Made by a program: the position numbers and the translations under genes. Shown in pieces: positions 8,906 to 24,587 of a DNA stretch of 64,000 nucleotides; within the stretch, counting starts at the first letter, position 1, and every line of letters begins with the position of its first letter. The notes under the pieces were generated by a model that was not told the origin of the DNA, did not search any database, and worked only from the letters and a program-made list of their open reading frames with translations. The stretch spans positions 124,001 through 188,000 of the forward strand of contig JANQMR010000024.1 of NCBI GenBank assembly GCA_028279985.1, given 5' to 3'. This DNA comes from Woeseiaceae bacterium (lineage in GTDB: Bacteria; Pseudomonadota; Gammaproteobacteria; Steroidobacterales; Woeseiaceae).

Positions 8906-9643
8906 TCACTCGGGGTTCGAGGCGAAGGACTGCGGATCCCGGATGAACAGTGTGAGGCTCACACGCCGTTCCAGCGCATAACTGTCGGTCGTCGGTTCCG
9001 CCGCCACGGATTCCCCATGGGCAGCGGCGCTGATACGCGCCGCATCGACGCCGGCGGCAAGCAGCTGCTGCCTGACGAAATCGACGCGCTTTTCCGACAA
9101 CGATTGGTTGTAGGATTCGGCGCCGCGTTCGTCGGCGAAACCGTCCAGCCGGACGTGGATATCCGGCATCGAAGCCAGGGTCGAAGCGAGCCCGGCCAGC
9201 CGGCCGCCGGTCGTGTCGGCCAGCACGTGCTCATCCGTGCGAAACGGCAGGTCCAGCGCAATCCCGGATTGCATCAGACGTACGAGCTCGGGCCGCGCAT
9301 TGCGCTGGAGTTCGTGCAACTCCGCAGCGAGCGTGTCGAGATTGCGGTTCGAGGCCTCGAGCCGGCGCTCCAGCCTGTCGATGGTGCCGCCGGACTCCTC
9401 CAGCGAACCCGACAGCGTCTCGATGCGCTGGCTCTGGCGGTGAAAGCTGTCGCCGATTTTGGCGCCGATCGCCGCACCGACAATGAAACCTACGGGCCCG
9501 CCCGCAACGGCGCCGATGACGCCGCCCGCGCCGACGCCGATCGTTTCCTGTTTCGACGCCTTGGCATGGGCCGGGGCCGGCAGGCTCGCGATTGTGATTG
9601 CGATAAGGCCGGTGAGTGCAATGGCTGTGACTGTCTTGCGCAT
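8906..9643 (-). CDS. OmpA-family envelope protein with glycine zipper and coiled coil
   Basis: The 245-residue protein begins with a clear signal peptide (hydrophobic core about 7-20, cleavage after PAHA near 27). A glycine-zipper segment follows (about 36-66, GVGAGGVIGAVAGGPVG then GAAIGAKIG), then a coiled-coil stretch of about 60 residues, then a C-terminal OmpA-like peptidoglycan-binding domain (about 120-235) with DGFADERGAESYNQSLSEKR. It should anchor to peptidoglycan in the periplasm. A GGAGGA ribosome-binding site lies just before the ATG. The layout resembles the OmpA-like PdsO protein of proteobacterial dedicated sortase systems, but no sortase or Pds kinase gene is visible. It is the last gene of the long leftward cluster and ends at a strong terminator. 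Confidence 0.88.
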   Translation of the reverse strand: MRKTVTAIALTGLIAITIASLPAPAHAKASKQETIGVGAGGVIGAVAGGPVGFIVGAAIGAKIGDSFHRQSQRIETLSGSLEESGGTIDRLERRLEASNRNLDTLAAELHELQRNARPELVRLMQSGIALDLPFRTDEHVLADTTGGRLAGLASTLASMPDIHVRLDGFADERGAESYNQSLSEKRVDFVRQQLLAAGVDAARISAAAHGESVAAEPTTDSYALERRVSLTLFIRDPQSFASNPE

Positions 9644-9777: not shown

Positions 9778-10776
9778 TCAGGCTTCGAAATCGGTCAGCG
9801 CCACGAACGTGCCGCCGTTGCGTTCGGTCAATACACGCATCAGTTGCGAGAACCGGTGCGCGGTCGGCGGGATATCCCCGTTGCCGCGGAACAGGAACGG
9901 AAATCCCACGGCATGTATCCTGACCAGGCGGTTCCCCGCCGCGTCTTCCCGATTGATCGCGTCGATCTGGCGCACGACGTTCTCGATCGACCGTCCGCTG
10001 AACTCGTCGCCGAAGACGTAGATGCTGATCTTCTTGTCCGCCGACCAGTAGGTGCTGATCGCATAGATGATACCGTCCACCGGATTACTGTCGCTGAACG
10101 GGCGCCAGGTCCGCATCGTGTTGACGATCGCCTGGCGGCGGCCGGGCGTGTCCGGAATCCACCGGCCGCGGTACTGCGAGAACATGTAGTTGCCGTTGTC
10201 GTTCATGATCTGGATGCCTTTCACCTGGGGATAGACTTCCAGCGTCTCGGTCAGTTTTTGCTGGGCGCGGCGCCAGTTGTACTGCTGCATGCTGCCCGAG
10301 GTGTCGACGATGAATATGATGTATTCGCTGTCCACCGGTATGCCCGCCACGGCATCGTTGTCGGCGCGCTTGTAATACGGTTGCAGCCGCCGCATCTCCT
10401 CGGTCAAGCGTTGTTTCGCGGACTCGAGCGCACCCTCGTCCACGACGGTCTCGGCGTCCTGCCGGGTCGCCTGGTACCGGCCCCTGACCGTTTCCAGCTC
10501 GCCGCGCAAGCGGGCGAGCTGGAGCTTCTTCGTCGAGGTCTGCTCGCGCACGTCCTCTAGCTCGCGATTGAGCACCGTGGTCTCGCCGCGTATCTCGAAC
10601 AGCTCTTCCTGTAGCAGGGCGATCAGGCTTTCGAGATCGTCCTGCGTTTTTTCGATGATGACGGGCTCGTAGATCTTGGAGAGCACCAGAAGCAGGATGA
10701 TCGCGCCGAAACCGCAACAGATGCAGTCGAGAAACGACAGGCTGAAAGCCTCGACGTTGCGGCGGCGGCGTTTCAT
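9778..10776 (-). CDS. ExbD-like membrane protein with periplasmic von Willebrand A domain (VWA-2)
   Basis: This 332-residue protein has one N-terminal transmembrane helix (about 13-34) after a basic KRRRRN start. The helix contains SFLDCICCGFGAIILL, with an aspartate (Asp17) at the position where ExbD/TolR/MotB helices carry their proton-relay aspartate. A coiled coil covers about 40-125, and a VWA domain about 150-330 with the MIDAS motif DTSGSM (158-163). Its neighbour VWA-1 has the same plan. With the ExbB/MotA-like gene upstream I infer an ion-driven stator-type complex whose ExbD parts project VWA domains into the periplasm. That role is inference; the topology and motifs are seen directly. 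Confidence 0.82.
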   Translation of the reverse strand: MKRRRRNVEAFSLSFLDCICCGFGAIILLLVLSKIYEPVIIEKTQDDLESLIALLQEELFEIRGETTVLNRELEDVREQTSTKKLQLARLRGELETVRGRYQATRQDAETVVDEGALESAKQRLTEEMRRLQPYYKRADNDAVAGIPVDSEYIIFIVDTSGSMQQYNWRRAQQKLTETLEVYPQVKGIQIMNDNGNYMFSQYRGRWIPDTPGRRQAIVNTMRTWRPFSDSNPVDGIIYAISTYWSADKKISIYVFGDEFSGRSIENVVRQIDAINREDAAGNRLVRIHAVGFPFLFRGNGDIPPTAHRFSQLMRVLTERNGGTFVALTDFEA

Positions 10777-10803
10777 CGGTCCGGCATGCTCATTGCCAAC
10801 TTC

Positions 10804-11901
10804 TCATGGCCAATCGCGGCTGACGCTCATGAACGATCCCCCGGTGGCATAAGCCAGGGTCCAGTAGGCAATCGCGGCATCGTAGTCGCCTTCCATCGGA
10901 TACAACAGTATGTTGACAGGCACGCCGATCGGCAGTTCACGAATCGCGCGCCGGTGCAGGTTGAACCGCTCGCGGCCGCTGACGGTGCGCCGATTCGTTG
11001 TCGCCGCCTCCATCGTCGGCAAGCCGTCCACGAGCAGGATGATGTTGTCCGGGCGCGGTGTGAGCGACGCGGCCACTTCGTAGGCGGCGCGAAGATTGGT
11101 CCCGTTTTCCGGAACGGTGCGGCGCAGCACCTGGATCGCCTCGTCGAGCTGGGTGGCGTCGTCGGCCTCGAGCCAGGTCCCCTCGCTGCCCTTGATGACG
11201 GGTTCGACCTGGTTGTTGAACGCGTATATCTGAAACTCGCTGCCGGGTGCGAACTGCGAGGTCAGCCAGTCGACGCTCGCCACGACCTGCCGCCACTTGA
11301 CGGCGGCCAGCTTGTCCGCCGTGTCCATGTTGCGCCGGCGGATGATGTTGACGATCGTATCGTCCAGCATGCTGGCGGAGCGGTCGACCAGTATCAGCGT
11401 ACGCTCGCCGCCGAGCTTGAGGCCGGTAAGATACTGCCGGTCGCCCTCTCCCTTGAACTCGCGAAGCCGGGTCCCCTCGTTTTCCTCCTCGGCGCTCAGG
11501 GCGAGCAGGCGCTTGACCTCCTGTTCCAGCGATTCGATGTCGCTTTGAAGCTGCTCGACACGCTCGACCCGCGCCAGGGTTTCCTTGTCGTACTCGGCGA
11601 GCTCTTCTCGCAACTCCTCGATAAGGGCGATGATGACGGCGATCTGGCCCTGGGCGTCCTCCCGCTCCGTGTCGAGCCGTTCGCGGGTGTTTCTCGCAAG
11701 CACGAGATTCTTGCGGCCCTCGAGGATCTCGACTTCGAGCTTGCGTGTCTCCGCCATCAGGTCCGCCGGGTCTTCGTCCGTCGTCTCGTTGACCTGGGCG
11801 TTGATGATCATGAAAAACAGGATTACGGCGCCGAACCCGCAGCTCATGCAGTCGAGAAACGACATGCTGAAGACTTCGAACGAGCGTCGTTTACGCGCCA
11901 T
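10804..11901 (-). CDS. ExbD-like membrane protein with periplasmic von Willebrand A domain (VWA-1)
   Basis: This is a paralogue of the next gene (365 residues). It starts MARKRRSFEVFSMSFLDCM, with an aspartate at position 17 inside one transmembrane helix (about 13-34), exactly as in VWA-2. A long coiled coil (about 45-140) is followed by a VWA domain with a MIDAS of the form DRSASM (173-178) and a later NIILLVDGLPT strand. I chose the ATG at 11901, which overlaps the 3' end of the actin-like/FHA gene by 11 bp; an upstream start would translate the 15-bp repeat as a run of WWTR units, which is implausible. It is probably secreted N-in, C-periplasmic and pairs with VWA-2 and the ExbB-like channel. 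Confidence 0.82.
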   Translation of the reverse strand: MARKRRSFEVFSMSFLDCMSCGFGAVILFFMIINAQVNETTDEDPADLMAETRKLEVEILEGRKNLVLARNTRERLDTEREDAQGQIAVIIALIEELREELAEYDKETLARVERVEQLQSDIESLEQEVKRLLALSAEEENEGTRLREFKGEGDRQYLTGLKLGGERTLILVDRSASMLDDTIVNIIRRRNMDTADKLAAVKWRQVVASVDWLTSQFAPGSEFQIYAFNNQVEPVIKGSEGTWLEADDATQLDEAIQVLRRTVPENGTNLRAAYEVAASLTPRPDNIILLVDGLPTMEAATTNRRTVSGRERFNLHRRAIRELPIGVPVNILLYPMEGDYDAAIAYWTLAYATGGSFMSVSRDWP

Positions 11902-13288
11902 CGGCTTCGTCCACCATAGTCTCGTCCACCACCGTCTCGTCCACCACAATCATGCGCAACTCGTAGCCCGGCGATCCGAGGCGCACCAGGTCGCCGACCT
12001 GCAGTACCGCGGAGCCGTCGATCGGATGCCCGTTGAGAAAGGTGCCGTAGCGGCTGTGATCCTGCACGACACATTGGCCGTTTTGCCTTTGCAGCGAACA
12101 GTGCCGGCGAGATACGCCGGGCATGTCGCCGCCGAGGTCGACGTGACGTTCGCCGTCGGGCCTTCGGGTACCCAGGGTCAGCGGCCGGTCGTCGATCGCA
12201 TAGGCCCGGTTGCCGAGCAACAGGTGTGTCGGCTGCCCCTCCGCGGCCGTCTCGTCGGCGCGCGACACCTCCAGCGCCGCATGATCCCACGGTAGCTGGC
12301 GTATGAGACTGACACCGCCGGATGTGCTCTGCATGTTGCCGCAACGCGCCAGCAGGCCGCGCGAGGTTGCGCCCGGCTCGAGCAGGAACACTTCACCGCC
12401 GACACGCGCTTTCAGGCTCTCCGCCAGACCCGGCATGCGGGCGGCGCGAGCCGTCAACTGTATCGCCGGCGTTTCCTCCGCACGATACACCGCGCGCAGT
12501 TGGCCGACGATGCGCTGGTATACCGGCGCCGCCGCCGAGATCAGGGAAATCGATTCGATCTCCGCCGCGTGCGTGATGTTGCGGTACTCGACTTCGAGCC
12601 GCACCGTATCGCCGGACGCCGCCTGCGCCAGCCAGCCGGTCAGTCGATCCTGCAACGACTGCTCGGTTACCGCCGTGTGCAGCGGGTCGAAGCGCGACTG
12701 TCGAACGAAGGCATCGGCGATCACGCGTATCCAGGCATCGCGCAAGGCCAGAAGCCCGCCGGCATCCACGACGCTCTGGCGCTCCACCTGCACCCGGCCG
12801 GGCTGCGCGAGCCGGGTCAGCGTGGCCGCGTGCAAGCCCAGGTCCACGTGTACCGGAACCGCGCCGCGATACTCGCGGCGCGTCGCGGCGACCGCGGCGT
12901 CCACCATGCCGGCGACCGGCACGCCGACCTCGGACGAAATCCCCAACAACAGCGCCAGTTTGTCGGTGGATACGTAAGCCGGGACGGCGAGCACCAGTCT
13001 GTCCCCGGCCTCTGCAACCCGATTCCAGATGCTCTCGAGCTGGCGGCTGACCAGGTCCGCGGCGCTCAAATGCCGGAAACGCCTGTCGGGCAGCGGTTCG
13101 GTGCCGAGATCCATCCAGAACCGGTTCTGGATGCGCCGCGGATTGAGCCGCGCATGCGCGAAAGCTTCGCTGCCCGTCACGAGGCGATCCTCTTCGAGCA
13201 AGGCAAAACCAGGCTCCCGGTAAAGAATGCGTTCCCGATCCAGTACCGATATTCCGGCGTCGTTGATATGCGCAGCTAGCAGGGTCAT
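11891..13288 (-). CDS. Actin/Hsp70-like ATPase-fold protein with C-terminal FHA domain
   Basis: This 465-residue cytosolic protein has no signal peptide or TM helix. The N-terminal ~330 residues read like an actin/Hsp70-type fold: an early AAHINDAGIS strand-loop, a LVLAVPAY block near 98, and HVDLGLHAATLTRL (about 147-160), which resembles a phosphate-2 DxGxxxxT loop. The C-terminal ~110 residues form an FHA domain (GVSRRHCSLQ near 391, DHSRYGTFLNG near 410) that should bind phosphothreonine, presumably made by the cluster's kinases. The last residues are three in-frame VDET-type repeats from a 15-bp tandem array. The actin-like assignment is by eye and moderate; FHA is firm. It could link phospho-signals to the ExbB/VWA complex. 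Confidence 0.75.
   Translation of the reverse strand: MTLLAAHINDAGISVLDRERILYREPGFALLEEDRLVTGSEAFAHARLNPRRIQNRFWMDLGTEPLPDRRFRHLSAADLVSRQLESIWNRVAEAGDRLVLAVPAYVSTDKLALLLGISSEVGVPVAGMVDAAVAATRREYRGAVPVHVDLGLHAATLTRLAQPGRVQVERQSVVDAGGLLALRDAWIRVIADAFVRQSRFDPLHTAVTEQSLQDRLTGWLAQAASGDTVRLEVEYRNITHAAEIESISLISAAAPVYQRIVGQLRAVYRAEETPAIQLTARAARMPGLAESLKARVGGEVFLLEPGATSRGLLARCGNMQSTSGGVSLIRQLPWDHAALEVSRADETAAEGQPTHLLLGNRAYAIDDRPLTLGTRRPDGERHVDLGGDMPGVSRRHCSLQRQNGQCVVQDHSRYGTFLNGHPIDGSAVLQVGDLVRLGSPGYELRMIVVDETVVDETMVDEADGA
11907..11951. repeat. 15-bp tandem repeat in the C-terminal codons of the FHA gene
   Basis: Three copies of TCGTCCACCA with a 15-bp period (11907, 11922, 11937) encode VDET(V/M) repeats at the FHA protein C-terminus and lie directly upstream of the VWA-1 start. 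Confidence 0.88.
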
Positions 13289-13306: not shown

Positions 13307-14107
13307 TCAGTCGGCTTTCATGTGCCGTATCAGTTTTTCGTCGGCGTAAGCGGCGCTGTCGAACACCAGCCGTTCCTGCATTAGCTGTAGCTGGTAGACG
13401 AGGAACATCAGAAAAATACTGATCAACAGGGCAATGAACGTCGAGTTGAAGGCGACACCCAGGCTCTGGGTGACGCCCGCGATGTCGCCCTGCACGGCCT
13501 TGTCCGCCTGCGCCAGCGCCTCGCCGATACCGCGTACGGTGCCTATGAAACCGATCGACGGAATCGCCCAGGAGATGTAGCGGATCATCGACAGCTCCGA
13601 CTCGAGACGCTCCGCCTCGGACTCCATGATCGTGTTCGTGCTGCTGGAGACGTCCTGGATGTTGTGCGTGGATTCGAAACGGCGCAGGGCGTTCAGGAGC
13701 GCCCTCGGCAGCAACATCTGTCGCCGGTTGCGGGGCAGTGCCTGCACCTGGCGCGCGAACTCCCGCGTATCCTCGGGCAGTATTCGCATTCCTTCCGCCA
13801 CGGGCACCAGATCCACTTCCAGCAGGTGCCGCTCGCGCGAAATCTTGACGGCCTTGTAGCCCATGATGGCCAGCGCCCAGAACATCAGGATGATACAGGC
13901 TTCCTGTTCGAGGTCCTTGATCAGCACCCAGACATGGCGCTCGCGCACGTAGTCGGGGTCCACCGCCGCGGCCGCATTCTGCTCGGCGATGATCTTAGCC
14001 GCATTCGGTCGGACCACCGATACGTAGAACGCGTGGACGATGATGACCGCAATGATCAGCGCAAAGAGTTGATAGACGAATTCTACGGGGATGTTCTTTC
14101 TGTTCAT
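13307..14107 (-). CDS. ExbB/TolQ/MotA-family proton-channel-like protein
   Basis: This 266-residue inner-membrane protein has four predicted helices (about 11-30, 69-86, 180-200, 214-240) and a cytoplasmic loop of about 90 residues between helices two and three. The third helix has IPSIGFIGTVRGIGEAL and the fourth LGVAFNSTFIALLIS, which are the conserved ExbB/TolQ/MotA helix motifs. Family members form the pentameric stator around a dimer of ExbD/TolR/MotB. No conventional ExbD or TolR is present; the two downstream VWA proteins with an aspartate in their single TM helix fit that role. The start codon region is duplicated (16-bp repeat), so an upstream in-frame-like GTG copy exists. Confidence 0.88.
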   Translation of the reverse strand: MNRKNIPVEFVYQLFALIIAVIIVHAFYVSVVRPNAAKIIAEQNAAAAVDPDYVRERHVWVLIKDLEQEACIILMFWALAIMGYKAVKISRERHLLEVDLVPVAEGMRILPEDTREFARQVQALPRNRRQMLLPRALLNALRRFESTHNIQDVSSSTNTIMESEAERLESELSMIRYISWAIPSIGFIGTVRGIGEALAQADKAVQGDIAGVTQSLGVAFNSTFIALLISIFLMFLVYQLQLMQERLVFDSAAYADEKLIRHMKAD

Positions 14108-14255: not shown

Positions 14256-14525
14256 CTAGATATCGGTCGGAAAGGCGATGGCCTGATCCGTCGGGATGTC
14301 TTCGCTGGGAACGAAGTCCTCCTCCTCGGTATCCGCATAACTACGCTCGTCGAGCTCGATCGTGTCCTCGCCGGAAGACGGCTCGACCGTTTCCTCCGGC
14401 GCCGCCCGGGCGGACTCCTCGTCGGCCGGGGCGTCGGATTCCTGTGTCCAGCCCGGAGCTGCCGCCAGGAGCGCAACGACCGGGACAATCTTCACTAGCG
14501 CAGTCTTCACTATCGCACTACGCAC
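14256..14525 (-). CDS. Small acidic secreted protein of the kinase/VWA cluster, unknown function
   Basis: The 89-residue product has a GTG start and a signal peptide (basic residues in a short repeat AIVKTALVKIV, hydrophobic core to about 24, likely cleavage near WTQ). The mature part of about 60 residues is very acidic (many Asp/Glu, few basic residues) and probably unfolded. I do not recognise a family. It sits between the SUMF1/PEGA gene and the ExbB-like gene in the same direction, so it may be a periplasmic accessory of the complex. The reading frame could also be a minor or decaying gene, but the signal peptide and operon position favour a real one. Confidence 0.6.
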   Translation of the reverse strand: MRSAIVKTALVKIVPVVALLAAAPGWTQESDAPADEESARAAPEETVEPSSGEDTIELDERSYADTEEEDFVPSEDIPTDQAIAFPTDI

Positions 14526-14618: not shown

Positions 14619-17045
14619 TCAGTCCGCGTTCCGGGCGATCCGGAATCCGACGTCGGTCCGCGGCCGGTCGCCGGCGTCCCGGTAGCTCAGTCGGAGCTCG
14701 GTCGCCGTCGCATGCCGCCAACCGGGACCGCGTATGACGTAAGACTGCCCGCGCTCCGGCCCGAGCGGGTCCTCGATCGGCGTCGTGACGCCCGGCGTCG
14801 GCACCGTATAGTAGTCGTTGACCCATTCGGCGACGTTGCCGCTACCGTCCAGGATGCCGAGCGCGTTCGCGGGGAACTTGCCGACCGGCGACGTCGAGGC
14901 AAAACCGTCGTCATAGCCCGGTATCACGGTCGGCACCAGTTCGGCCGCGGAGCGGTCCGCATAATTGCCCGCGTCTTCCCGCGGCGGCCATCGATCGCCC
15001 CAGGAGAAACGGCGCGCGCCCGCGCTGCCCTCGTAGCGAATCGCCCATACCCATTCGGCCTCGGTCGGCAGCCTGTAGCCGTTCGGGAACGGACGGATCG
15101 CGACCCAGGCCCCGAACTCCTCGCGATACACCGGCGTCAGCCCCTCCCGGGCGCTCAGCCAATTGCAATATTGCACGGCATCGTCCCAGCTCACGTTGGC
15201 GACGGGATTGCCGTCCGCCGCAAGCGAGGCATGGACGTCGGCACCGGAGTCGTGATTGGCCCTGAACTCGGCGAACTCGCGATTGGTCACCTCGGTCGTA
15301 CCGATCAGGAACGGCTTCGTCAGGGTCACCGGCACCAGCACCTCGTTGGCGCGTCTTCCCGCTTCGGCGCGTGAGGAACCGAGCATGAACGTGCCCGGCT
15401 CGACCCGTCGCAGCGTCTGGCCGGCGGCGGTCTTGCGCTCGGTGGCAATGGACAGGCGTTCGATCTCGGCCTGCGATCGCAAGCTCGCGGTCAGCGTCTG
15501 CGGATAGCCCGGGCGCGGCGTGACGCTGCGCGACCAGGTCTCATAACCGGCCTTCCTCACCTCGATGCGTTGCGGCGCCGAACTGAGCTCGAGGGTCATC
15601 GTGCCGCTGCCTCGCGCGCGGCCGTTCACATAAACCGTGGCGTCGGCCGGTGCGACGTTGACGGTTACCGTACCCGTGGTCGCCGTGAGGTCTACCGTAA
15701 TCGAGTCGCTGGCGGCGGGTTCCAGGCGCACGCGCCGGCTGGTCGCTCCGTAACCGGCCCTGGACAGTCCGATCTCGTAGTTGATGCCGGGCTCGAGATC
15801 CAGCGACAGCGGCGACTGGCCGCGGTAGCGGCCGTTGACCGTTACGTTCGCGCCCCTGGGAATCGAATTGACCCGCAACTTCGCGTTGGCAGGCTCAAGC
15901 CGGATCGTCGGCAAGCTCTGGTCCACGTCGGCAACCGCTACGACGTTGCCGTCCCAGGCGGCGTAACCTTCGAGCACGACGCTCAACCGATGCGAGCCTT
16001 CGAGCAGCTCGACCACGGCCGGCGTCGTGCCGAGACGCCGTTCGCCGGCATAAATCGTCGCCCCGCTCGGTTCGGAGCGAAGCTCGACGTCGGACCAGCG
16101 CGGCACGAGTTGCACGGTCAGCACGTCGTCGAGGCCGAGACCTTCGACCCGCACCGTGTCGGAATACGGCAGGAACCGGTCAGCCGAGACGTCGACGCTG
16201 TGCTCGCCCGGTTGCAGCTCTACCGGTCCGTATGGCGCCGGCCCGATCAGCGTGTCGTTGATCCGGACCACGGCATCGGCTGCCGGATAGGTCTTGACGG
16301 TCAGGTTGCCGGGCAGGCGGCGCAGGCGGACCTCGATCGTCTTATTCGGCACCTCATCCACGACGAAGGTCTGGCTGGCTTCGTAGTACCCCTGCTTTCG
16401 CACCTGTACCGTGTATTCGCCTTCGCGCATCAGGATGCGGTTACCCAGGGGCAGCTTGAACCAGCCGCCGACGATCGTGAGCTCGTCGGCACCGGCGGGC
16501 AGTATCTCGAACTCGATCGAGCGCGATGTGAACAAAAGAAAAGAGACCGCGACCAGGGCCGCCAGTACGACGCCGATCGCCGCAGCCAGCCTGCCGCGTT
16601 TCGGCGCCTCGTCACGCGCCGCGGTTTCGGTCGCACGCTTGAACGCGGCCGGCGCAATCGTCTCTTCCGCCGGCGCGGCCTGATCCGCCGGCAACTCCGG
16701 CGGCCGGGTGATGTAGGCGCTGTCTTCGAGCTGTACGGCGAGCGCCAGGCGATCGCCGGCGGCCGACACGGCGATGCGACTGCCGAAATACTCGAGGATG
16801 TCGCCGTCGGCCAGGCGGCGGCTCGTCGTCAACGGCGCTCCGTTGATCGACATGGCCGAATCCTTGCCGACGGGCTGCACGAACGGCGCTCCGTCCAGCA
16901 GGTCGAACAGCATGACCGGCCCGCCGCCCGGACCGGGCAGGCGAAGCTCGCAGTCGATGCCGGTGCCGACACGAAGCGGCAATTGCCCGGCTTCGATTCG
17001 TCGTTCACCCTCGACGTCCCTGATGAACAGGTGATCGAAACTCAA
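14619..17045 (-). CDS. FHA-TM-PEGA(n)-SUMF1 protein (formylglycine-generating-enzyme-like domain)
   Basis: This 808-residue membrane protein has an FHA-like N-terminal domain (about 1-100, cytosolic), one TM helix (about 151-171), about four to five PEGA-type beta domains (about 175-540; repeated units such as PSGATIYAGERRLGTTP, PRGANVTVNGRYRGQSP, PADATVYVNGRARGSG), and a C-terminal SUMF1/FGE-sulfatase domain (about 550-808; GTEVTNREFAEF, YRLPTEAEWVWA, GSGNVAEWVNDYY, DVGFRIARNAD). SUMF1-like domains often serve as binding rather than oxidase modules. The start is a TTG overlapping the upstream kinase stop by 4 bp (TTGA), implying translational coupling. It could carry cytosolic phospho-signals across the membrane to the periplasm. 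Confidence 0.87.
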   Translation of the reverse strand: MSFDHLFIRDVEGERRIEAGQLPLRVGTGIDCELRLPGPGGGPVMLFDLLDGAPFVQPVGKDSAMSINGAPLTTSRRLADGDILEYFGSRIAVSAAGDRLALAVQLEDSAYITRPPELPADQAAPAEETIAPAAFKRATETAARDEAPKRGRLAAAIGVVLAALVAVSFLLFTSRSIEFEILPAGADELTIVGGWFKLPLGNRILMREGEYTVQVRKQGYYEASQTFVVDEVPNKTIEVRLRRLPGNLTVKTYPAADAVVRINDTLIGPAPYGPVELQPGEHSVDVSADRFLPYSDTVRVEGLGLDDVLTVQLVPRWSDVELRSEPSGATIYAGERRLGTTPAVVELLEGSHRLSVVLEGYAAWDGNVVAVADVDQSLPTIRLEPANAKLRVNSIPRGANVTVNGRYRGQSPLSLDLEPGINYEIGLSRAGYGATSRRVRLEPAASDSITVDLTATTGTVTVNVAPADATVYVNGRARGSGTMTLELSSAPQRIEVRKAGYETWSRSVTPRPGYPQTLTASLRSQAEIERLSIATERKTAAGQTLRRVEPGTFMLGSSRAEAGRRANEVLVPVTLTKPFLIGTTEVTNREFAEFRANHDSGADVHASLAADGNPVANVSWDDAVQYCNWLSAREGLTPVYREEFGAWVAIRPFPNGYRLPTEAEWVWAIRYEGSAGARRFSWGDRWPPREDAGNYADRSAAELVPTVIPGYDDGFASTSPVGKFPANALGILDGSGNVAEWVNDYYTVPTPGVTTPIEDPLGPERGQSYVIRGPGWRHATATELRLSYRDAGDRPRTDVGFRIARNAD

Positions 17046-19444
17046 ATCGGTTCCTCGGAACGGACGACGACCGGCGTCATCTCGATTTCCGGCGCCACCC
17101 GGAATTCGATACGCACGTCGCGATACCCGGGACGGCTGCCGACGGCCACGTAGGTGCCGGGGCGAAGCTCGAGCTCGCGCTCGCCGAAGTTGCCGAGTCT
17201 ACCAACTTTGTAGATCGACACCTCGGTCGCGTTGTCGGAAACGATCCGCACCTTGAGCGGTGTCGCGGCCCGTTTGAGCAGGCGGGACAGCTCGTCGCGC
17301 TGGTCCGACAGGCGGGGACCGATGTCCGGCATGCGCGTGATGTCCACGACCAACATCGTCGCCGCCTGCATCGTGGACGGACTGCTCAGCCTGTCCGGCT
17401 CCGCAATGTAGTCGTCCAGCCGTTGGTGCAAGGCCGTCATGCGACGCGATTCTGCCAGGCCCTGCTGCGCGAAGCTCAGATTCGCGTCCAGGTCCAGGAT
17501 GCGGGTGTAGGTGTCGACCGCGTCCCGCCACTGCTCCCCGGCTTCCTGCCGCCGTGCCCGTGCCTCCAGCGCGCCGATCCGGTCGAGCTGTATCCCCTGC
17601 TCGACCTGCAGCAGTCCGTCGGCAGGCTCGGGGGAACCGGGCTTCAGGGTCTCGGCCATTCGAAACGCCGCACGCGCCGCGAGGTAGTCACCCTCGGCCA
17701 GCGCCGTCAGTCCCTCGGTCATGCGCTGATCGAAGCGCATCCGGGTAATCGCCTCACGAACCCGGGCGAGCCCGGTGCGCGCGGGCTCCCACTTCGGATC
17801 GATTTCCGCGGCGCGTTCGAAGCTCGCGCGGGCAGCCTCGAGCTCCAGGTTGTTTTCGTACTCCAAAGCCCGGTCGGTCAAGCTCATGACCTCATCGAGA
17901 TTCATTGCCCGGTCGAAGCCCGCGCGGGCCGCCGCATCGTTCGGGCTGATCGCCACGGCGAGCTCGAACAGCCGCACGGCTTCGGGAGCGTCCGCGGCGT
18001 CCAACGCCGCCTGGGCATCGCCGAGCGCCTGCCTGAATACATCGTCGACCTCGTCGATCAGCGGCTCGACGACCGCTATCGCCTGTCGGTACTTTTCGCT
18101 TGCAGTGGCATAGTCGCGCGCGAGATACGCCCGGTCGCCTTCCGCGTAAATGCCCTGTGCGCGCCTGAACCTCAGCCCGCCCCAACGCTGGACAGCGCGC
18201 TGTTCGAGCGTATTTATCATCGACAACAAGGTACCGAGCACCTCCTCGGTCGCCGCCCTGTCCTGCACCCGCCTGTCCCGGCCGCTCAGGTCTTCCCGGT
18301 TCTCGTTGAACGATACGCCGGGCCTGGCCTCCTCCGGCGCCTCGGGGCGGCCCGGCGCCGCGGTGTCGACGGGCTGCTCGACGGCAACCGGCGCATCGTC
18401 CGGGTCGTCGACTTTGCCCGGCAAAACGAAGACGACACCGGCCAGCAACAGCAGCAACGCCAGAAGACCGCCGCCCAACAAACCCGGCCGGATGCCGCGC
18501 TCGTCGGTATCCAACGGTGCAGCGGCGGCGGTCTCGAAAGCGCTCGACCCGGCCGGACGCGATACCCGGCCGGTTTCGATGAGCTCGTCGTCCAATACCC
18601 GCTGCGCCGCGACATAGGCGGCCGGCGCCGGACGACGCCCGGCAAAACCCGCGTTCGTGAGCTCTTCGACGACGTCGGCCGCGTCGGGCCGGGCCTCGGC
18701 CCGTTTGTCCAGCATGCGTGCGACCAAGCCTCGCAATGCAGGCGGCACCGGTTCGCCGGATGCGGCGGTCAGTACCGGCGGTTCCGCTTCCCGGATATCC
18801 CGCTCGGTCGCGTCCGAGGAATACGGCGACCGTCCGCTGACCAGCTCGTAGATCAGCCCGCCCAGGGCAAAAATGTCGTCGGCGGCCTGCGGCGACTCGC
18901 CCGCGAGTCGTTGCGGGCTTGCCGCGATCAGCGAGCCGCCGCCCGGATTCTCGCCGCGGTCCGCCGCGACGCCGAAGTCGATCAGATACGGAGCGCCGCT
19001 GGGATCGAGCAGGACGTTGCTCGCCTTGACATCGCAGTGCACGACGCCCTTGGCATGCGCATACCGCAAAGCGTCCGCGACCAGGGCGATACAGGGCAGG
19101 CAGTCCTCGAGCGGCGCGCCGGCCAGCACGCCGACATCGGGACCGTCGATGAACTGCAGGCTGTAACAGGCCGGCACCTCGTCGTGGAACTCGAACACGC
19201 GAACGATGTGGGCATGCATCAGGCGCAGGCCGATTTGCCATTCGCGCCGCAGGGCGTCGGCTCCCGGTGTACTGTCGCTCGGAATGCCGCTCAGGATCTT
19301 GAGCGCCACCGGGGTTCCGGTGACGCGGTCGCCGGCAAGCCAGGTCTCCGTCGTCCTGCCGGCGCCGAGCCGGCGAGTCAGCGTATAACGCTTGCCCAGC
19401 TCCGCGCCGACTTCGAGGGCGCGCCCGGGATTCGGACCGATCAT
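17042..19444 (-). CDS. Transmembrane Ser/Thr protein kinase with periplasmic repeats and PEGA-like end
   Basis: This 800-residue protein is a Hanks-type kinase. The domain spans about 20-285 with VALK (Lys49), HCDVKASN (catalytic Asp138) and DFG (156-158); the glycine loop is LGAGRTTETW. A linker leads to one TM helix (about 320-345). The outer part has a proline/acid-rich stretch, then TPR-like helical repeats (about 405-690), and ends with a PEGA-like beta segment (LELRPGTYVAVGSRPGYRD). It should phosphorylate FHA-partner proteins of the same cluster in response to envelope cues. It overlaps the lipoprotein gene by 4 bp (ATGA) upstream and the SUMF1 gene by 4 bp downstream, so the three form a coupled unit. 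Confidence 0.92.
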   Translation of the reverse strand: MIGPNPGRALEVGAELGKRYTLTRRLGAGRTTETWLAGDRVTGTPVALKILSGIPSDSTPGADALRREWQIGLRLMHAHIVRVFEFHDEVPACYSLQFIDGPDVGVLAGAPLEDCLPCIALVADALRYAHAKGVVHCDVKASNVLLDPSGAPYLIDFGVAADRGENPGGGSLIAASPQRLAGESPQAADDIFALGGLIYELVSGRSPYSSDATERDIREAEPPVLTAASGEPVPPALRGLVARMLDKRAEARPDAADVVEELTNAGFAGRRPAPAAYVAAQRVLDDELIETGRVSRPAGSSAFETAAAAPLDTDERGIRPGLLGGGLLALLLLLAGVVFVLPGKVDDPDDAPVAVEQPVDTAAPGRPEAPEEARPGVSFNENREDLSGRDRRVQDRAATEEVLGTLLSMINTLEQRAVQRWGGLRFRRAQGIYAEGDRAYLARDYATASEKYRQAIAVVEPLIDEVDDVFRQALGDAQAALDAADAPEAVRLFELAVAISPNDAAARAGFDRAMNLDEVMSLTDRALEYENNLELEAARASFERAAEIDPKWEPARTGLARVREAITRMRFDQRMTEGLTALAEGDYLAARAAFRMAETLKPGSPEPADGLLQVEQGIQLDRIGALEARARRQEAGEQWRDAVDTYTRILDLDANLSFAQQGLAESRRMTALHQRLDDYIAEPDRLSSPSTMQAATMLVVDITRMPDIGPRLSDQRDELSRLLKRAATPLKVRIVSDNATEVSIYKVGRLGNFGERELELRPGTYVAVGSRPGYRDVRIEFRVAPEIEMTPVVVRSEEPI

Positions 19445-20679
19445 CCCGCCGGTTCGGTAGACCGGACAGGACTGCCGACGTCAACGGGCTCCGGAAAACC
19501 GGTCTCCGCCTCGTAGATTTCCTTGAGCAAACGCCGCCAGCTTTCGTATTGCGCCGCGGCGGTGCCGGTCAGGCGGCGGGTTTCGCCCTCGACGTCGATG
19601 ACCATCGGCGCGGCTTCCGACCCAAAGGACTCGGACAGCTCCCTGATCGCCTCGATGTGCAACGAGGCCTCGGAACGCTTGGTGAAACCGGCGAAGATCT
19701 GATTGAAACCTTCCGAGATACCGATGCTCTGCAGGCCCCGATTGACACGGCGCTGCGAGGAGCTCGAGCTGTCGGTATCCACCGCCAGCGAGCCGGCGAG
19801 CACGACCACGCCCATCAGCGTCTGCAAGGTCGCCGATCGTTTGACCTGCCGATAATTGATGGCCTCCTCGCGCGAGGTCTTGCGCCAGGCGTGATAGGGA
19901 ATCGCGATACCGTAATAGAAGTTCGCGTAGTGTTCGTTCAGCGTATCGATGACCAGTCGGTCACGTTCGCGGATTTGCCGTAGCCGCGTGACGTTCGGAT
20001 CGTTCTCCGCCGGCAGGCGCAACAACGAAACCTGGCCGTTTTCGTCGGTTTCCAGGTGATTGCCGAAAGCCAGCGGCGACATGTCGCCGAAAAACTGTAA
20101 CTCGGAGATCTGCCGAATCCGCCCGATGCGCTCCGGCGGCAATTGCTCGGCATAGGCGTGCAGGTCGTTGGCGATGTCGTTGAATACCTTCTGGTACGGG
20201 TCGAGGCGCCTGTCTCGATGCTCGGAATACGACGATATCCCGGTCTGGGTCGAGTACTTCCTGGTAAACCAGTGTGTTCCCGCGGCGTCGTTCACCGACA
20301 CGCTCAGGGTAACGAACTCCCCGTCGGACCGCTCGATGTCGCCGCTGACCACGACGTCGGTAAAAGCGTCTCGTGACGGCACGACGCGCACGGCGCCCCA
20401 GTGGCCGGTACCCTGCAAGGTCGCCTTCAGATGGTAGGGAAGATAACGCGCCTCGGCATTGCGTATCTCTTCGTAAACGCCGGTGTCCTCGGAGTCGTTC
20501 GACTCGGTCACGCCCGGGTCGAACTCGACAATACCGATGTCCAGCAGCATCGCTTCGTCTTTCGGCGCCTCCGCGACGACCAGTTCGGTTTCTTCGGCCG
20601 TGACGACTTCATTGACGGCGCATCCCTGAAGCGTGACGGCACCCAACAACAGCAGCGGTAAACCGGGCAGCGGTCTCAT
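19441..20679 (-). CDS. Outer-membrane-type lipoprotein of the kinase/VWA cluster
   Basis: The 412-residue product begins with a lipoprotein signal (MRPLPGLPLLLLGAVTLQGC; lipobox LQGC, mature Cys about 20). I chose the ATG at 20679 because an AGGA lies about 12 nt upstream; an in-frame TTG at 20688 is also possible. The body has no domain I recognise; it contains a stretch that looks like a curli/LpoB-type lipoprotein beta domain (LKATLQGTGHWGAVRVVPS, VVSGDIERSDGE), then helical parts. The residue after the lipid cysteine is Ala, which does not suggest retention in the inner membrane. The 4-bp overlap with the kinase gene ties it to the signalling cluster. Confidence 0.8.
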   Translation of the reverse strand: MRPLPGLPLLLLGAVTLQGCAVNEVVTAEETELVVAEAPKDEAMLLDIGIVEFDPGVTESNDSEDTGVYEEIRNAEARYLPYHLKATLQGTGHWGAVRVVPSRDAFTDVVVSGDIERSDGEFVTLSVSVNDAAGTHWFTRKYSTQTGISSYSEHRDRRLDPYQKVFNDIANDLHAYAEQLPPERIGRIRQISELQFFGDMSPLAFGNHLETDENGQVSLLRLPAENDPNVTRLRQIRERDRLVIDTLNEHYANFYYGIAIPYHAWRKTSREEAINYRQVKRSATLQTLMGVVVLAGSLAVDTDSSSSSQRRVNRGLQSIGISEGFNQIFAGFTKRSEASLHIEAIRELSESFGSEAAPMVIDVEGETRRLTGTAAAQYESWRRLLKEIYEAETGFPEPVDVGSPVRSTEPAG

Positions 20680-20690
20680 GCGTGACAAAT

Positions 20691-20715
20691 CCTGTCCGTA
20701 CCTGTCCTGTCCCTA
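20691..20715. repeat. Short CCTGTCC repeats at the Gly-rich / lipoprotein boundary
   Basis: CCTGTCCGTA, CCTGT and CCTGTCCCTA follow one another between the stop of the Gly-rich gene and the start of the lipoprotein gene. The last unit includes the stop codon. Confidence 0.6.
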
Positions 20716-21816
20716 CGGGCCTTTGTACTTGCGGTACTCTTCCCAGAGCCGCTCACGCAATTCCGGATCTTCTTCCGCCAGCGCGGCCTCGCGCAACTGC
20801 CTTGCGATGATGTCGTCGTCCACGGTCACCGGAATATCGTCCGGCGTACGCTCCCTGATCTCTTCCTCGGTCATCCCCGCCGTCGGCGACACGCGGGGCT
20901 CCTTGCCCGTATTGATGACCGCGACCGAGCCGCCGCCGCCCTGTTCGCCGAGGCTGACGCTGCCGCCCGACCGGCCGCCCGCACCGCCGCCGAAGCCCTC
21001 CAGGTTGCGGCCGGCCGAGGCGACTTCACGCTGCTCCTCGTTGAGCACCTCGTCGAAGCCGCCGATCGATTCCTCGAGTTCCTTGCCCAGGCGGTCGGCG
21101 CGCTCGGCGTCACTTTCGCCCGGAAACTGGCCGACGCTACCGACGCCGCCGGTTCCGGCGACCGTGCCTTCACCGCCCTGAGCATCGCCACCGGCCGTGC
21201 CGGATCCGCCGCCGCCAGCACCGTCCATGCCGGCTTCGGTGCCGATGCAGTCGCCAGCCTGACCCATGCCGCCGATACCGCCCGGCAAGACGCCGGTGTC
21301 GCCGCAGTCGCCCTGGCCGGTCGACTCGGCGTCGGCGTAGGGATCGTCGCCTTCACCGCCGTCGCCCTGCTGGCCGTCACCGCCACCCGTACCCGGGAAT
21401 CCGCCGGGAATCTCGATCTGCGGCACACCGCCGACACTACCGGCGCCGCCCGAACCGTCGCCGCTGCGCGTGCCGCCGGCGCCACTCCCCGATGAGCCGC
21501 CGCCGGACATCCCGCCACCTGACGAGCCGCCCCCGGGCGTGCCGCCTCCGGACATCCCGCCGCCCGACGAACCGCCTCCGGGCATGCCACCCCCGGACAT
21601 CCCGCCACCTGAGGAGCCGCCGCCCGACGAGCCGCCGCCGGATGAACCGCCACCCGGGCTCGGGATTCCCCCGGAGGGCACGGGAATGCTGGCACCACCG
21701 CCAGGTGGCGTGATCGCGGAGGTCTTGCACCCCGCTACGAAGAAAACGGCCAGACCGGCCACGGCCATCGGCCTGACCCAGGATTCGAGACCTTTCACAC
21801 GATTCGATCGATTCAT
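20713..21816 (-). CDS. Glycine-rich lipoprotein, low complexity
   Basis: The 367-residue protein has a lipoprotein signal (lipobox VAGC) after the ATG at 21816, which has a GGGG stretch upstream. The next ~75 residues are almost only Gly, Ser, Met and Pro in GGGSSGGG/GGGMSGGG units encoded by imperfect nested repeats of about 15-45 bp. A further Gly-rich part is studded with acidic residues and four or more cysteines, followed by a helical, charged C-terminus (AELAEEDPELRERLWEEYRKYKG-like). It is likely a flexible surface or periplasmic tether. No family is recognised. It lies between the PP2C gene and the second lipoprotein gene, same direction. Confidence 0.78.
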   Translation of the reverse strand: MNRSNRVKGLESWVRPMAVAGLAVFFVAGCKTSAITPPGGGASIPVPSGGIPSPGGGSSGGGSSGGGSSGGGMSGGGMPGGGSSGGGMSGGGTPGGGSSGGGMSGGGSSGSGAGGTRSGDGSGGAGSVGGVPQIEIPGGFPGTGGGDGQQGDGGEGDDPYADAESTGQGDCGDTGVLPGGIGGMGQAGDCIGTEAGMDGAGGGGSGTAGGDAQGGEGTVAGTGGVGSVGQFPGESDAERADRLGKELEESIGGFDEVLNEEQREVASAGRNLEGFGGGAGGRSGGSVSLGEQGGGGSVAVINTGKEPRVSPTAGMTEEEIRERTPDDIPVTVDDDIIARQLREAALAEEDPELRERLWEEYRKYKGP

Positions 21817-22163
21817 TAGCTGTCGCCCCGCAACGGTGCGTGTATCGGCTGGTCCTCCGCGCCAAGCCCTCGACGGACCAACCATTCCTAATAGACTGTA
21901 GATTGGGCAACCGTGCGACCGCCGAGTTCCCTCGGCGCACGCGCCGGACGGCCGTCAACCGTGGATTTTTCGCCTCTCGACGATACCTAGATAATTCGAC
22001 GATAAGACGATAATACGCGGCAGAACCGCGTTCAACTCCCTGTGCCGCGCTTTTTGCGCACGCGAGCGGAGGATTTGGACTCGGCAGATGAGTGGAATGC
22101 GGCCTCGATTCAGGACGACGTTGCGTCGCGACGTCGATAGAGACCGGTGGAAAATCCTTCGCT
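21817..22163. other. 347-bp gap upstream of the Gly-rich lipoprotein gene
   Basis: No plausible gene is present. It must contain the leader, and probably a promoter, for the leftward genes from 21816. GACGATA units recur at 21977, 21996 and 22006, giving the AT-richest part. Just after the PP2C stop a 5-bp stem (AATCC/GGATT) followed by TTCC could be a weak terminator. Confidence 0.5.
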
Positions 22164-22997
22164 TCAGGGATTCTTTAGGCTGGGTTTTCGATACAAGATC
22201 AGGGACAGATCGTCGGGCTTGTGCGGTACGCCGTCGGCCGGGTTTGCCATGCGTTCGACCGCGAGCCCGATCACCTCATCCGCGGCCTCGTCCAGCGGCC
22301 CTTTGCGAATCCGTTCGACGATCTCGTCGACATGCAGATTGTCCGTCAGACCGTCACTCGCCAGGATGATGGTGTCACGGGGCTCGAGATCGAGCGACGC
22401 GCCGATGTCGATACGCATGTCGCTGGTGCCCAGCAGATTGGATACCAGATGGCGCTCCTCATGGTGCAGGGCCTCGCGCTCGTCGAGAAATCCCGCTTCC
22501 ACCGCCAGACCGGTGGGAGAGTGCGGCGTGGTCTGCAACTTGATGCGCCCGCGCTGACCGACGATCATCGCCTCGGAGTCGCCGATCTGATAGGCGCGTA
22601 CGCTGCGACCCTCGACCGTAACTACCGTCAACGTCGTCGCCGAACCGTTTGCGAGCGCGAGCACGGCGTCGTTGGCCGCCTCGATACCGTTGAGAATGGC
22701 ATTGCGCAGCCGCATCGTGTTCTCGAGCGCGAGTTGCATCGAGGCGATCAGCGACAACACGGCCGTCCTCGAAGCGCGCTTGCCGGCGGGCAATCCGCCG
22801 GCGCCGTCGGCAACCGCGAGTATCGCGGCCTCCGGTCCGAACGGGATCACCGCGACGGTGTCTTCGTTTTCGGTTTGCTTGTCCGGAGACCGGCGGGTGT
22901 AGGCAATCATCTCGCCGCCGCCGACGAAGGCGCGTTTGCGGTCGGAGCCATCCGCAGCGTCGAGCAACACCAGTTCGTGATGTGGGTCCAGTACCAT
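22164..22997 (-). CDS. PP2C-family Ser/Thr protein phosphatase
   Basis: This 277-residue cytosolic PPM phosphatase should reverse phosphorylation by the two kinases of the cluster. Metal-binding motifs are in order: NEDTVAV (about 44), ADGAGGLPAG (63-72), GDSEAMI (about 139) and SDGLTD (about 216), with PDDLSLILY at the end. It lacks the long N-terminal strand-rich region of larger PPMs but has a normal catalytic core length. I place the start at the ATG at 22997. It sits between kinase and lipoprotein genes in one direction. Confidence 0.93.
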   Translation of the reverse strand: MVLDPHHELVLLDAADGSDRKRAFVGGGEMIAYTRRSPDKQTENEDTVAVIPFGPEAAILAVADGAGGLPAGKRASRTAVLSLIASMQLALENTMRLRNAILNGIEAANDAVLALANGSATTLTVVTVEGRSVRAYQIGDSEAMIVGQRGRIKLQTTPHSPTGLAVEAGFLDEREALHHEERHLVSNLLGTSDMRIDIGASLDLEPRDTIILASDGLTDNLHVDEIVERIRKGPLDEAADEVIGLAVERMANPADGVPHKPDDLSLILYRKPSLKNP

Positions 22998-23074
22998 CAA
23001 TCAGGCTCGGTTGATCCCGGTCACTTCGAACGAGCGCCCGACGGCGGAAGCAGCGGTTTTTGCAGCATTTCAAA

Positions 23075-23140
23075 CGTCTCGATCACGTCTCGATCGCGTT
23101 TCAGTCGCGTCTCAATCGCCTCTCAATCGCCTCACAAGGG
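23075..23140. repeat. 11-bp tandem repeat, six units, between kinase stop and PP2C start
   Basis: Units start at 23075, 23086, 23097, 23108, 23119 and 23130, all 11 bp: CGTCTCGATCA, CGTCTCGATCG, CGTTTCAGTCG, CGTCTCAATCG, CCTCTCAATCG, CCTCACAAGGG. The last unit contains the kinase stop codon, so the array may have grown from the gene's 3' end. Confidence 0.92.
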
Positions 23141-24454
23141 CTCCCGGCACCAGGCGCAGTAGTTCCAGTACGACCGAGCGACGCCCCAGCCGCAAGCGCG
23201 ACAAGAATCGCGGGTGCCGAGCAGTTTCCAGGGCTTCTTGATCTTGCTACGGCACCAGGGACAATACCGCATGAACGGAATCAGGGGACCGCCGCAGCGC
23301 TTGTTCGGGCATTTCTCCGTGTAACGCCGGTCCGGATAACGGCGCACCGCTTCCTCTTCGAATCCCGGCCCGTAGCACCAGGGACAGTAGTTCCAGTCGT
23401 TCTTGACGCCGCGCTCGCAGCGCGGGCAACTGGATGCGAACGCCGACTCCGAGCCCCGCGCCGGGTTGTCGAATCCGCACCACGGGCAGGACTGCATGCT
23501 TTCCGCCACCGGCCCCTCGCAGTGCCGGCATTGCTGGCGCGTGTTCAGTATCTTGCCGAATTCCCGCTGAAACTGCCGCCACTGCAATTGCCGCCAGGAT
23601 TGACCGGGCTTTCCCGCATGGCTGGGCGCGCCGCTTTTCTGTTTACGCGCGTGGCTTTGCAAGCGCTCGAAGGCCGCCTGCATGTCGATGGCGCTGGCAT
23701 AGCGCTTCGCAGGATCGAGCTGGATCGCTTTTTTCAGGATACCGATCAGTTCCGGCCGCACGCGCGCGGCCAGGCGATCGTAGCCGGCCAACGGCCATTC
23801 GTAAGGCCATTCGGGCAGCTTGCCGGAGAACAGTCGATAAAGGACCAGTCCCAGCGAAAACACGTCCGATTGAAACTTCGGCCGCCCCATCGCCTGCTCC
23901 GGAGCGATATAGTCGATGGTTCCCGAGCCGGAAGCCTTGAGGGTATGCAAACTGATCTTGGCGAACCCGAAATCCGCCAGTTTCAAGCGGTTTCCGGGGA
24001 ACAGAATGAAATTGTCCGGCTTGATATCGCAGTGAATGACTTTGTGTTCGTGCGCAAAGGCAAGCGCCGCCAGCGCCTGGCCGGCGAGATCCAGCGCCCT
24101 CGCCGTCGCGATTCGCCGTTCGAGCCGCTCCGCCAGCGACCGCTCGCCGAGCTCCATCGCTATCACGAAACGATCGTCGATGTAACTGGCATTGACGATC
24201 GACAGAATGTTGGGGTGCCGGAGTTTCACGGCAACCTGGACTTCGTGGAGGAACGCTTCGTGGCTCACGAGGCGGCTCAAGCGCGGGATTTTCAGCGCCA
24301 TACGGGTACGGTGAATCGTGTCGTACGCACTGTAGACGTCGGCGAGCGGGCCCGATGCGAGCCGGCCCAGGATCCGATACTTGCCAATCTTCTGCCGGGC
24401 CCTGAGCAACGGGGTCTCACTCCAGTCTTCGGTCCTGCGTGGCCCCGCAATCAT
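23132..24454 (-). CDS. Ser/Thr protein kinase with four C-terminal zinc ribbons
   Basis: This 440-residue cytosolic protein has no TM helix. The kinase domain spans about 22-290 with Lys55 (MALKIPR), HCDIKPDN (141-148), DFG (161-163) and an APEQ motif; the glycine loop is degenerate (LASGPLADV). Residues about 318-440 hold four zinc-ribbon-like units, each a CxxC pair followed 9-15 residues later by CPWC or CAWC (CRHC..CPWC, CPRC..CPWC, CPNKRC..CPWC, CRAC..CAWC). The ATG at 24454 has GAGG 7 nt upstream. It is the first gene of the leftward cluster. Kinases with zinc ribbons beside PP2C and VWA genes recall the TerY-P-type triads, from memory. Confidence 0.9.
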   Translation of the reverse strand: MIAGPRRTEDWSETPLLRARQKIGKYRILGRLASGPLADVYSAYDTIHRTRMALKIPRLSRLVSHEAFLHEVQVAVKLRHPNILSIVNASYIDDRFVIAMELGERSLAERLERRIATARALDLAGQALAALAFAHEHKVIHCDIKPDNFILFPGNRLKLADFGFAKISLHTLKASGSGTIDYIAPEQAMGRPKFQSDVFSLGLVLYRLFSGKLPEWPYEWPLAGYDRLAARVRPELIGILKKAIQLDPAKRYASAIDMQAAFERLQSHARKQKSGAPSHAGKPGQSWRQLQWRQFQREFGKILNTRQQCRHCEGPVAESMQSCPWCGFDNPARGSESAFASSCPRCERGVKNDWNYCPWCYGPGFEEEAVRRYPDRRYTEKCPNKRCGGPLIPFMRYCPWCRSKIKKPWKLLGTRDSCRACGWGVARSYWNYCAWCREPL

Positions 24455-24587
24455 TGGACCTCGAAGCCGCCCAGTCAAGGACCGCCAGCGGCGGCGGTGC
24501 AACACAACTGTCACCTAAGCTTAAGCTGACGGTCAAAATGAACGAATAGTCTTGCGGCGTGTTTCGCAGGGTCAGGCCTCGTATCGC

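Follow-up and report, generated by a model that had tools for sequence, protein, structure and literature searches.

A conserved operon encodes two paralogous VWA-domain proteins that probably form the paired axle of a proton-driven motor

Which protein could serve as the axle of an ExbB-like ring when its operon encodes no ExbD or TolR? The question is raised by a locus in the window (the whole stretch of DNA that was analyzed, 64,000 nucleotides), where two neighboring genes encode VWA proteins with an aspartate in the only transmembrane (TM) helix. An earlier note, made from the DNA letters alone, interpreted them as ExbD-like proteins forming a heterodimer inside an ExbB ring. Our analysis indicates that the two proteins, VWAa and VWAb, probably serve as the two-part axle of a motor driven by protons. 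To the reading as a whole, in which two non-identical axle subunits in an ExbB-like ring form a motor driven by the proton motive force (PMF) and switched by a kinase-FHA circuit, we give a probability of about 0.6. The genes at the center of the question are the following.

9778-10776, minus strand: VWAb, an ORF of 332 aa with a TM helix carrying Asp17, a coiled-coil stalk, and a periplasmic VWA domain (DTSGSM).
10804-11901, minus strand: VWAa, an ORF of 365 aa with a TM helix carrying Asp17, a coiled-coil stalk, and a VWA domain (DRSASM).
11891-13288, minus strand: a cytoplasmic protein with an Hsp70-like (ASKHA) fold and a C-terminal FHA domain (Pfam FHA, 49.1 bits).
13307-14107, minus strand: an ExbB/TolQ/MotA-like ring protein (PF01618, 55.3 bits, cutoff 22.9).

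Reading of the ORFs showed a basic stretch at the start of both VWA proteins and, after it, the motif FS(L/M)SFLDC..CGFGA (MKRRRRNVEAFSLSFLD17CICCGFGAIILLLVLSK in VWAb and MARKRRSFEVFSMSFLD17CMSCGFGAVILFFMII in VWAa). Hydropathy placed Asp17 inside the single TM segment of each protein, at residues ~13 to 31 in VWAb and ~15 to 33 in VWAa, just as the earlier note had described. The conservation on which its proposal depended was also found: Asp17 is present in 121 of 121 distinct operons for VWAa, and likewise in 121 of 121 for VWAb, across Gammaproteobacteria, Acidobacteriota, Myxococcota/Desulfobacterota, and Nitrospinota (the sole row scored "?" in this count reads RLSFLDVVSCGFGA). Because of this invariance, the shared helix motif with its aspartate is not a matter of chance. 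Part of the loci, from the GTDB contig scan, were retrieved by a pattern that includes the VWAa aspartate; the bias-free sets are therefore VWAa in the loci fetched through ExbB (L033 to L067) or through VWAb (L186 to L205), and VWAb in all loci. The loci fetched by these two routes agree on the invariant aspartate.

The ExbB-like protein aligns to TolQ over its last two TM helices, with T190 corresponding to TolQ T145 and T223 to TolQ T178. Both threonines are invariant in all 105 ExbB-like sequences, as are R192, T213, and N221. The proximity of one such gene to the two paralogues was borne out, with the FHA gene lying between, and homologous operons almost always contain it. In two loci of one family (L187 and L201) it was relocated after VWAb with the remaining order intact, and in locus L194 no ExbB was seen within the stretch read. 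No RNA structure was found upstream of ExbB.

The kinship implied by the term "ExbD-like," on the other hand, was not supported. First, no match to PF02472 (ExbD/TolR) was found among the operon proteins scanned with Pfam, the VWA proteins included. Second, the helix alignment to ExbD/TolR that had been suggested as a check gave no signal, since in hhalign the profiles of the Asp-bearing helices matched the ExbD helices of the same genomes no better than unrelated control TM helices. "ExbD-like" is therefore a functional analogy, for a protein that works in ExbD's place. With no ExbD/TolR among the scanned operon proteins, the VWA proteins are the only axle candidates in the operon. TolQR and ExbBD also combine a PF01618 subunit with two pore threonines and a single-TM partner with an aspartate, whereas the partner here is a long-stalk VWA protein, present as two paralogues with no significant sequence match to ExbD/TolR.

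Proteins of this kind have been described as the TPH-vWA family (Mol Biol Evol, June 2025, msaf138, PMC12204202). These vWA proteins are tethered by a TMH and encoded in tight linkage with tolQ homologues, with tolR and exbD lacking; they have a proton-binding aspartate, occur mostly as heterologous pairs, and in an AF3 model place two aspartates inside a ring of threonines (PMC12204202). The present locus shares with them the vWA domain behind a single N-terminal TM helix, the TM aspartate, the ring threonines, and the heterologous pair beside a tolQ-like gene without tolR or exbD. Since that paper describes a TPH-vWA motor, the motor idea of the earlier note had already been published, as a prediction. 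What survives of its interpretation is the conserved aspartate, the ExbB-like partner with pore threonines, the 1:1 pairing, and the MIDAS sites; ExbD/TolR membership and originality do not. Differences from the published family were also apparent. In the paper's text, the kinase, PEGA, and sulfatase/FGE partners and the small tailed gene described below are absent, the sole "FHA" match being FhaC, and the taxa named are Proteobacteria and Verrucomicrobia, compared to Acidobacteriota, Myxococcota, and Nitrospinota in addition here (PMC12204202).

The VWA domains claimed for both proteins were found. VWAa scores above the Pfam cutoff (VWA_2, 32.6 bits versus 27). VWAb, at 18.5 bits, falls under the Pfam VWA cutoff by sequence and was recognized from its AlphaFold2 model, in which the TM helix continues as one long helix (residues 9 to 106), followed by a second helix and a VWA fold at a pLDDT of ~90; Foldseek matched this model to solved VWA domains (best E, 4.7e-7). 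A MIDAS-type pattern, DxSxS with a distal T/S and D, is formed in both proteins by conserved columns. In VWAa, D174, S176, S178, and D293 are invariant and T269 is nearly so (numbering of the 366-aa sequence A1); in VWAb, D158, S160, S162, S230, and D257 are all invariant. The spacing from the helix aspartate to the MIDAS motif is nearly constant, at 152 to 158 in VWAa and 141 to 146 in VWAb, as would be expected of a rigid stalk. The only shorter spacing, 136, was seen in the divergent VWAb of L051 and L052. These loci are second, divergent operon copies in two genomes; they have no FHA gene, and their tailed gene is a 55-codon frame. Neither VWA protein has, by Pfam, an OmpA-like peptidoglycan-binding domain, the C-terminal feature of MotB.

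Do the two paralogues work together? A tree built from 33 operons, each contributing one VWAa and one VWAb sequence, separates them into two clades with 100/100 support, 33 sequences against 33, and each clade covers the sampled phyla. This means that one old duplication was retained as a pair; in the window the two proteins are 31% identical. No operon with two VWAa or two VWAb genes was seen, and in genome G047, where VWAb lies on a different contig from VWAa, both genes are present. Stalk lengths varied too little across loci for their correlation to serve as a heterodimer test. The strict 1:1 pairing fits a mixed axle, and it would also fit two alternative motors, in which the axle in the ring is a homodimer of VWAa or of VWAb, each homodimer serving a different partner or state. 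One aspartate per chain in both proteins is compatible with homodimers sharing a ring, the known 5:2 axles are homodimers, and which form exists for AglQ/AglS is not known (PMC9389320). However, strict 1:1 retention and adjacency across phyla, from a single old duplication and with neither paralogue ever seen doubled, make this alternative unlikely. AglRQS, the Myxococcus gliding motor, likewise has a single TolQ-like ring protein and two TolR-like subunits that differ from each other and both carry a TM aspartate, but AglQ and AglS belong to the ExbD/TolR family (PF02472) and have no VWA domain, whereas VWAa and VWAb do not match PF02472. A cluster resembling AglRQS-type motor clusters, with an ExbB gene, two different ExbD-family genes, and large adjoining ORFs, is present in the genome from which the window comes, outside the window (G000:C40, L185:8627-10333).

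The mixed-axle motor would be embedded in a larger operon, whose further genes and close neighbors in the window are as follows.

14256-14525, minus strand: a small exported protein of 89 aa with a hydrophobic N-terminus, an acidic variable linker, and a conserved C-terminal tail, FVPSEDIPTDQAIAFPTDI.
14619-17045, minus strand: a protein with an N-terminal FHA-like region (by eye), a TM helix (153-171), periplasmic PEGA repeats, and an FGE/SUMF1-like, GldK-like domain (PEGA, 152 bits; FGE-sulfatase, 135 bits).
17042-19444, minus strand: a Ser/Thr kinase with a TM helix (322-340) and a TPR region (Pkinase, 90.9 bits; TPR).
19441-20688, minus strand: a predicted lipoprotein (lipobox LQGC) without a known domain (no Pfam match), at the head of the conserved order.
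20713-21885, minus strand: a Gly-rich protein, conserved in same-genus loci and weakly beyond.
22164-23000, minus strand: a PP2C-family phosphatase (PP2C_2, 57.2 bits), linked in close relatives.
23132-24514, minus strand: a Ser/Thr kinase with C-terminal zinc ribbons (Pkinase, 118.5 bits; DZR, 32.1 bits), linked in close relatives.

The conserved order is lipoprotein, kinase-TPR, PEGA/FGE, small gene, ExbB, Hsp70-fold FHA protein, VWAa, VWAb; scored without the small gene, it is kept in 73 of the 78 loci with enough flank. Of 60 relatives searched with the ExbB-like protein, 56 had a match, the weakest of these matches being just ordinary TolQ/ExbB. The VWAb profile was positive in 32 of 369 genomes in a class-wide search, a patchy distribution, and the GTDB contig scan widened the operon to Acidobacteriota (including the isolate Sulfidibacter corallicola), Myxococcota/Desulfobacterales, and one Nitrospinia MAG. 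Povalibacter uvarum is a further cultivated carrier, as is Idiomarina loihiensis, taken from the TPH-vWA paper. An OmpA-like gene at 8906-9643 (minus strand) resembles sortase-associated PdsO (124.8 bits, cutoff 152.2) and lies downstream of VWAb in many relatives. The PEGA/FGE protein scores 77.3 bits against NCBIfam GldK, under that family's cutoff. By eye, its FGE-like domain is missing the active-site cysteines of formylglycine-generating enzymes and is therefore probably structural; FGE-like domains are common. In GldKLM of type IX secretion, too, an FGE-like protein of the GldK type accompanies an ion motor whose axle protein is long and periplasmic; GldM is not known to have a VWA domain.

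The FHA protein gave an AlphaFold2 model with a pLDDT of 94 that matches DnaK/Hsp70 in Foldseek (E, 5.6e-17), with a TM-score of ~0.7 (target length) against targets consisting of the NBD only. Pfam sees only the FHA domain, with an Hsp70 match in 0 of 51 members. The phosphate and adenosine motifs appear degenerate by eye, so the protein may not hydrolyze ATP. The fixed place of the kinase-TPR gene and the linkage of the PP2C and zinc-ribbon kinase genes, seen also in locus L043, suggest phospho-control. The same inventory could serve a sensor rather than a motor, that is, a PMF-dependent or passive channel complex that informs the kinase-FHA circuit of the condition of the envelope, for the operon encodes a kinase and a pair of proteins in which an FHA or FHA-like region occurs (joined in the window by the second kinase and the phosphatase), and VWA MIDAS domains are ligand binders. 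We consider this distinctly improbable because the pore aspartate and ring threonines, which occur without exception, point to proton-coupled work.

The small gene preceding ExbB is the least familiar component. Across loci, its product starts with a hydrophobic segment, in many cases one with an AxA-type site, continues with a variable, acidic linker, and has a tail that runs to the stop codon. All 103 distinct operons with ExbB and PEGA/FGE in view have the tail consensus FxP[ST]ExIxxDxxIxFPx[DN]I, with D in 91 and N in 12 at the variable position of FPx[DN]I, and a scan over 112,076 stop codons gave just four unrelated matches. A search of the genome's other ExbB/ExbD/ExbD' cluster found no FPx(D/N)I tail. 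The protein belongs to no Pfam or NCBIfam family, a literature search for the tail motif gave no relevant report, and this small secreted protein is apparently previously undescribed. In the most divergent systems it is hardly more than a TM segment plus a tail such as SLNSPATFPVDI, which places the tail near the membrane. The protein may dock on the periplasmic face of the motor or on a VWA domain. When the D/N switch was compared with thousands of columns in the partner proteins, third place went to VWAa 182, which adjoins the MIDAS site; only two clades switch, so a pairing of the two is at most a weak lead.

For the stoichiometry, rotation, proton use, metal sites, partners, and regulation of the motor, we infer the following scheme. 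Five ExbB-like copies would form the ring, with one TM helix from VWAa and one from VWAb in its pore. Asp17 of each VWA protein would take up and release protons against T190 and T223 of the ring, and proton flow would turn the pair, whose long coiled-coil stalk would pass this movement on to both VWA domains. These may hold a periplasmic partner via their MIDAS sites, which are predicted to bind metal; the likeliest candidates for the partner are the PEGA/FGE protein, the lipoprotein, and the small exported protein. The kinase-FHA circuit would switch the machine. The most likely cellular task, in our judgment, would be force transfer to, or remodeling of, the outer envelope. A more specific version, with an obligately asymmetric 1:1 axle switched by kinase and FHA via the Hsp70-fold protein as an adaptor and with the FPx(D/N)I micro-protein engaging the periplasmic mouth or the MIDAS sites, is offered only tentatively and is somewhat doubtful. 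That the VWA proteins are instead side-bound, TonB/TolA-like force transducers around an ExbD/TolR axle encoded elsewhere is very improbable, for although nine ExbD/TolR matches lie in other parts of the genome and vWA transducers of TonB/TolA topology exist, the invariant TM-helix aspartate is an axle trait, the scanned operon proteins include no ExbD/TolR, and the SHLS motif is missing from the TPH-vWA family (PMC12204202). Zorya ZorAB also pairs a MotA/ExbB-type ring with a single-TM partner; it was rejected, the ZorA models matching weakly over TM3-TM4 (E, 0.001) and none of seven operon proteins matching ZorB, ZorC, ZorD, or ZorE (PADLOC).

The newest element is the small tailed protein, and the additions also include the fixed operon order, the Hsp70-fold FHA protein, and the kinase linkage. 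Concrete handles are provided by the tailed protein and by the FHA protein with its Hsp70-like fold, both of which go unmentioned in the text of the TPH-vWA paper (PMC12204202). If the motor reading is correct, the operon would encode an uncharacterized energized envelope machine present in several phyla and would offer a chance to settle whether such motors operate with mixed axles, the point that is also recorded as unsettled for AglQ/AglS.
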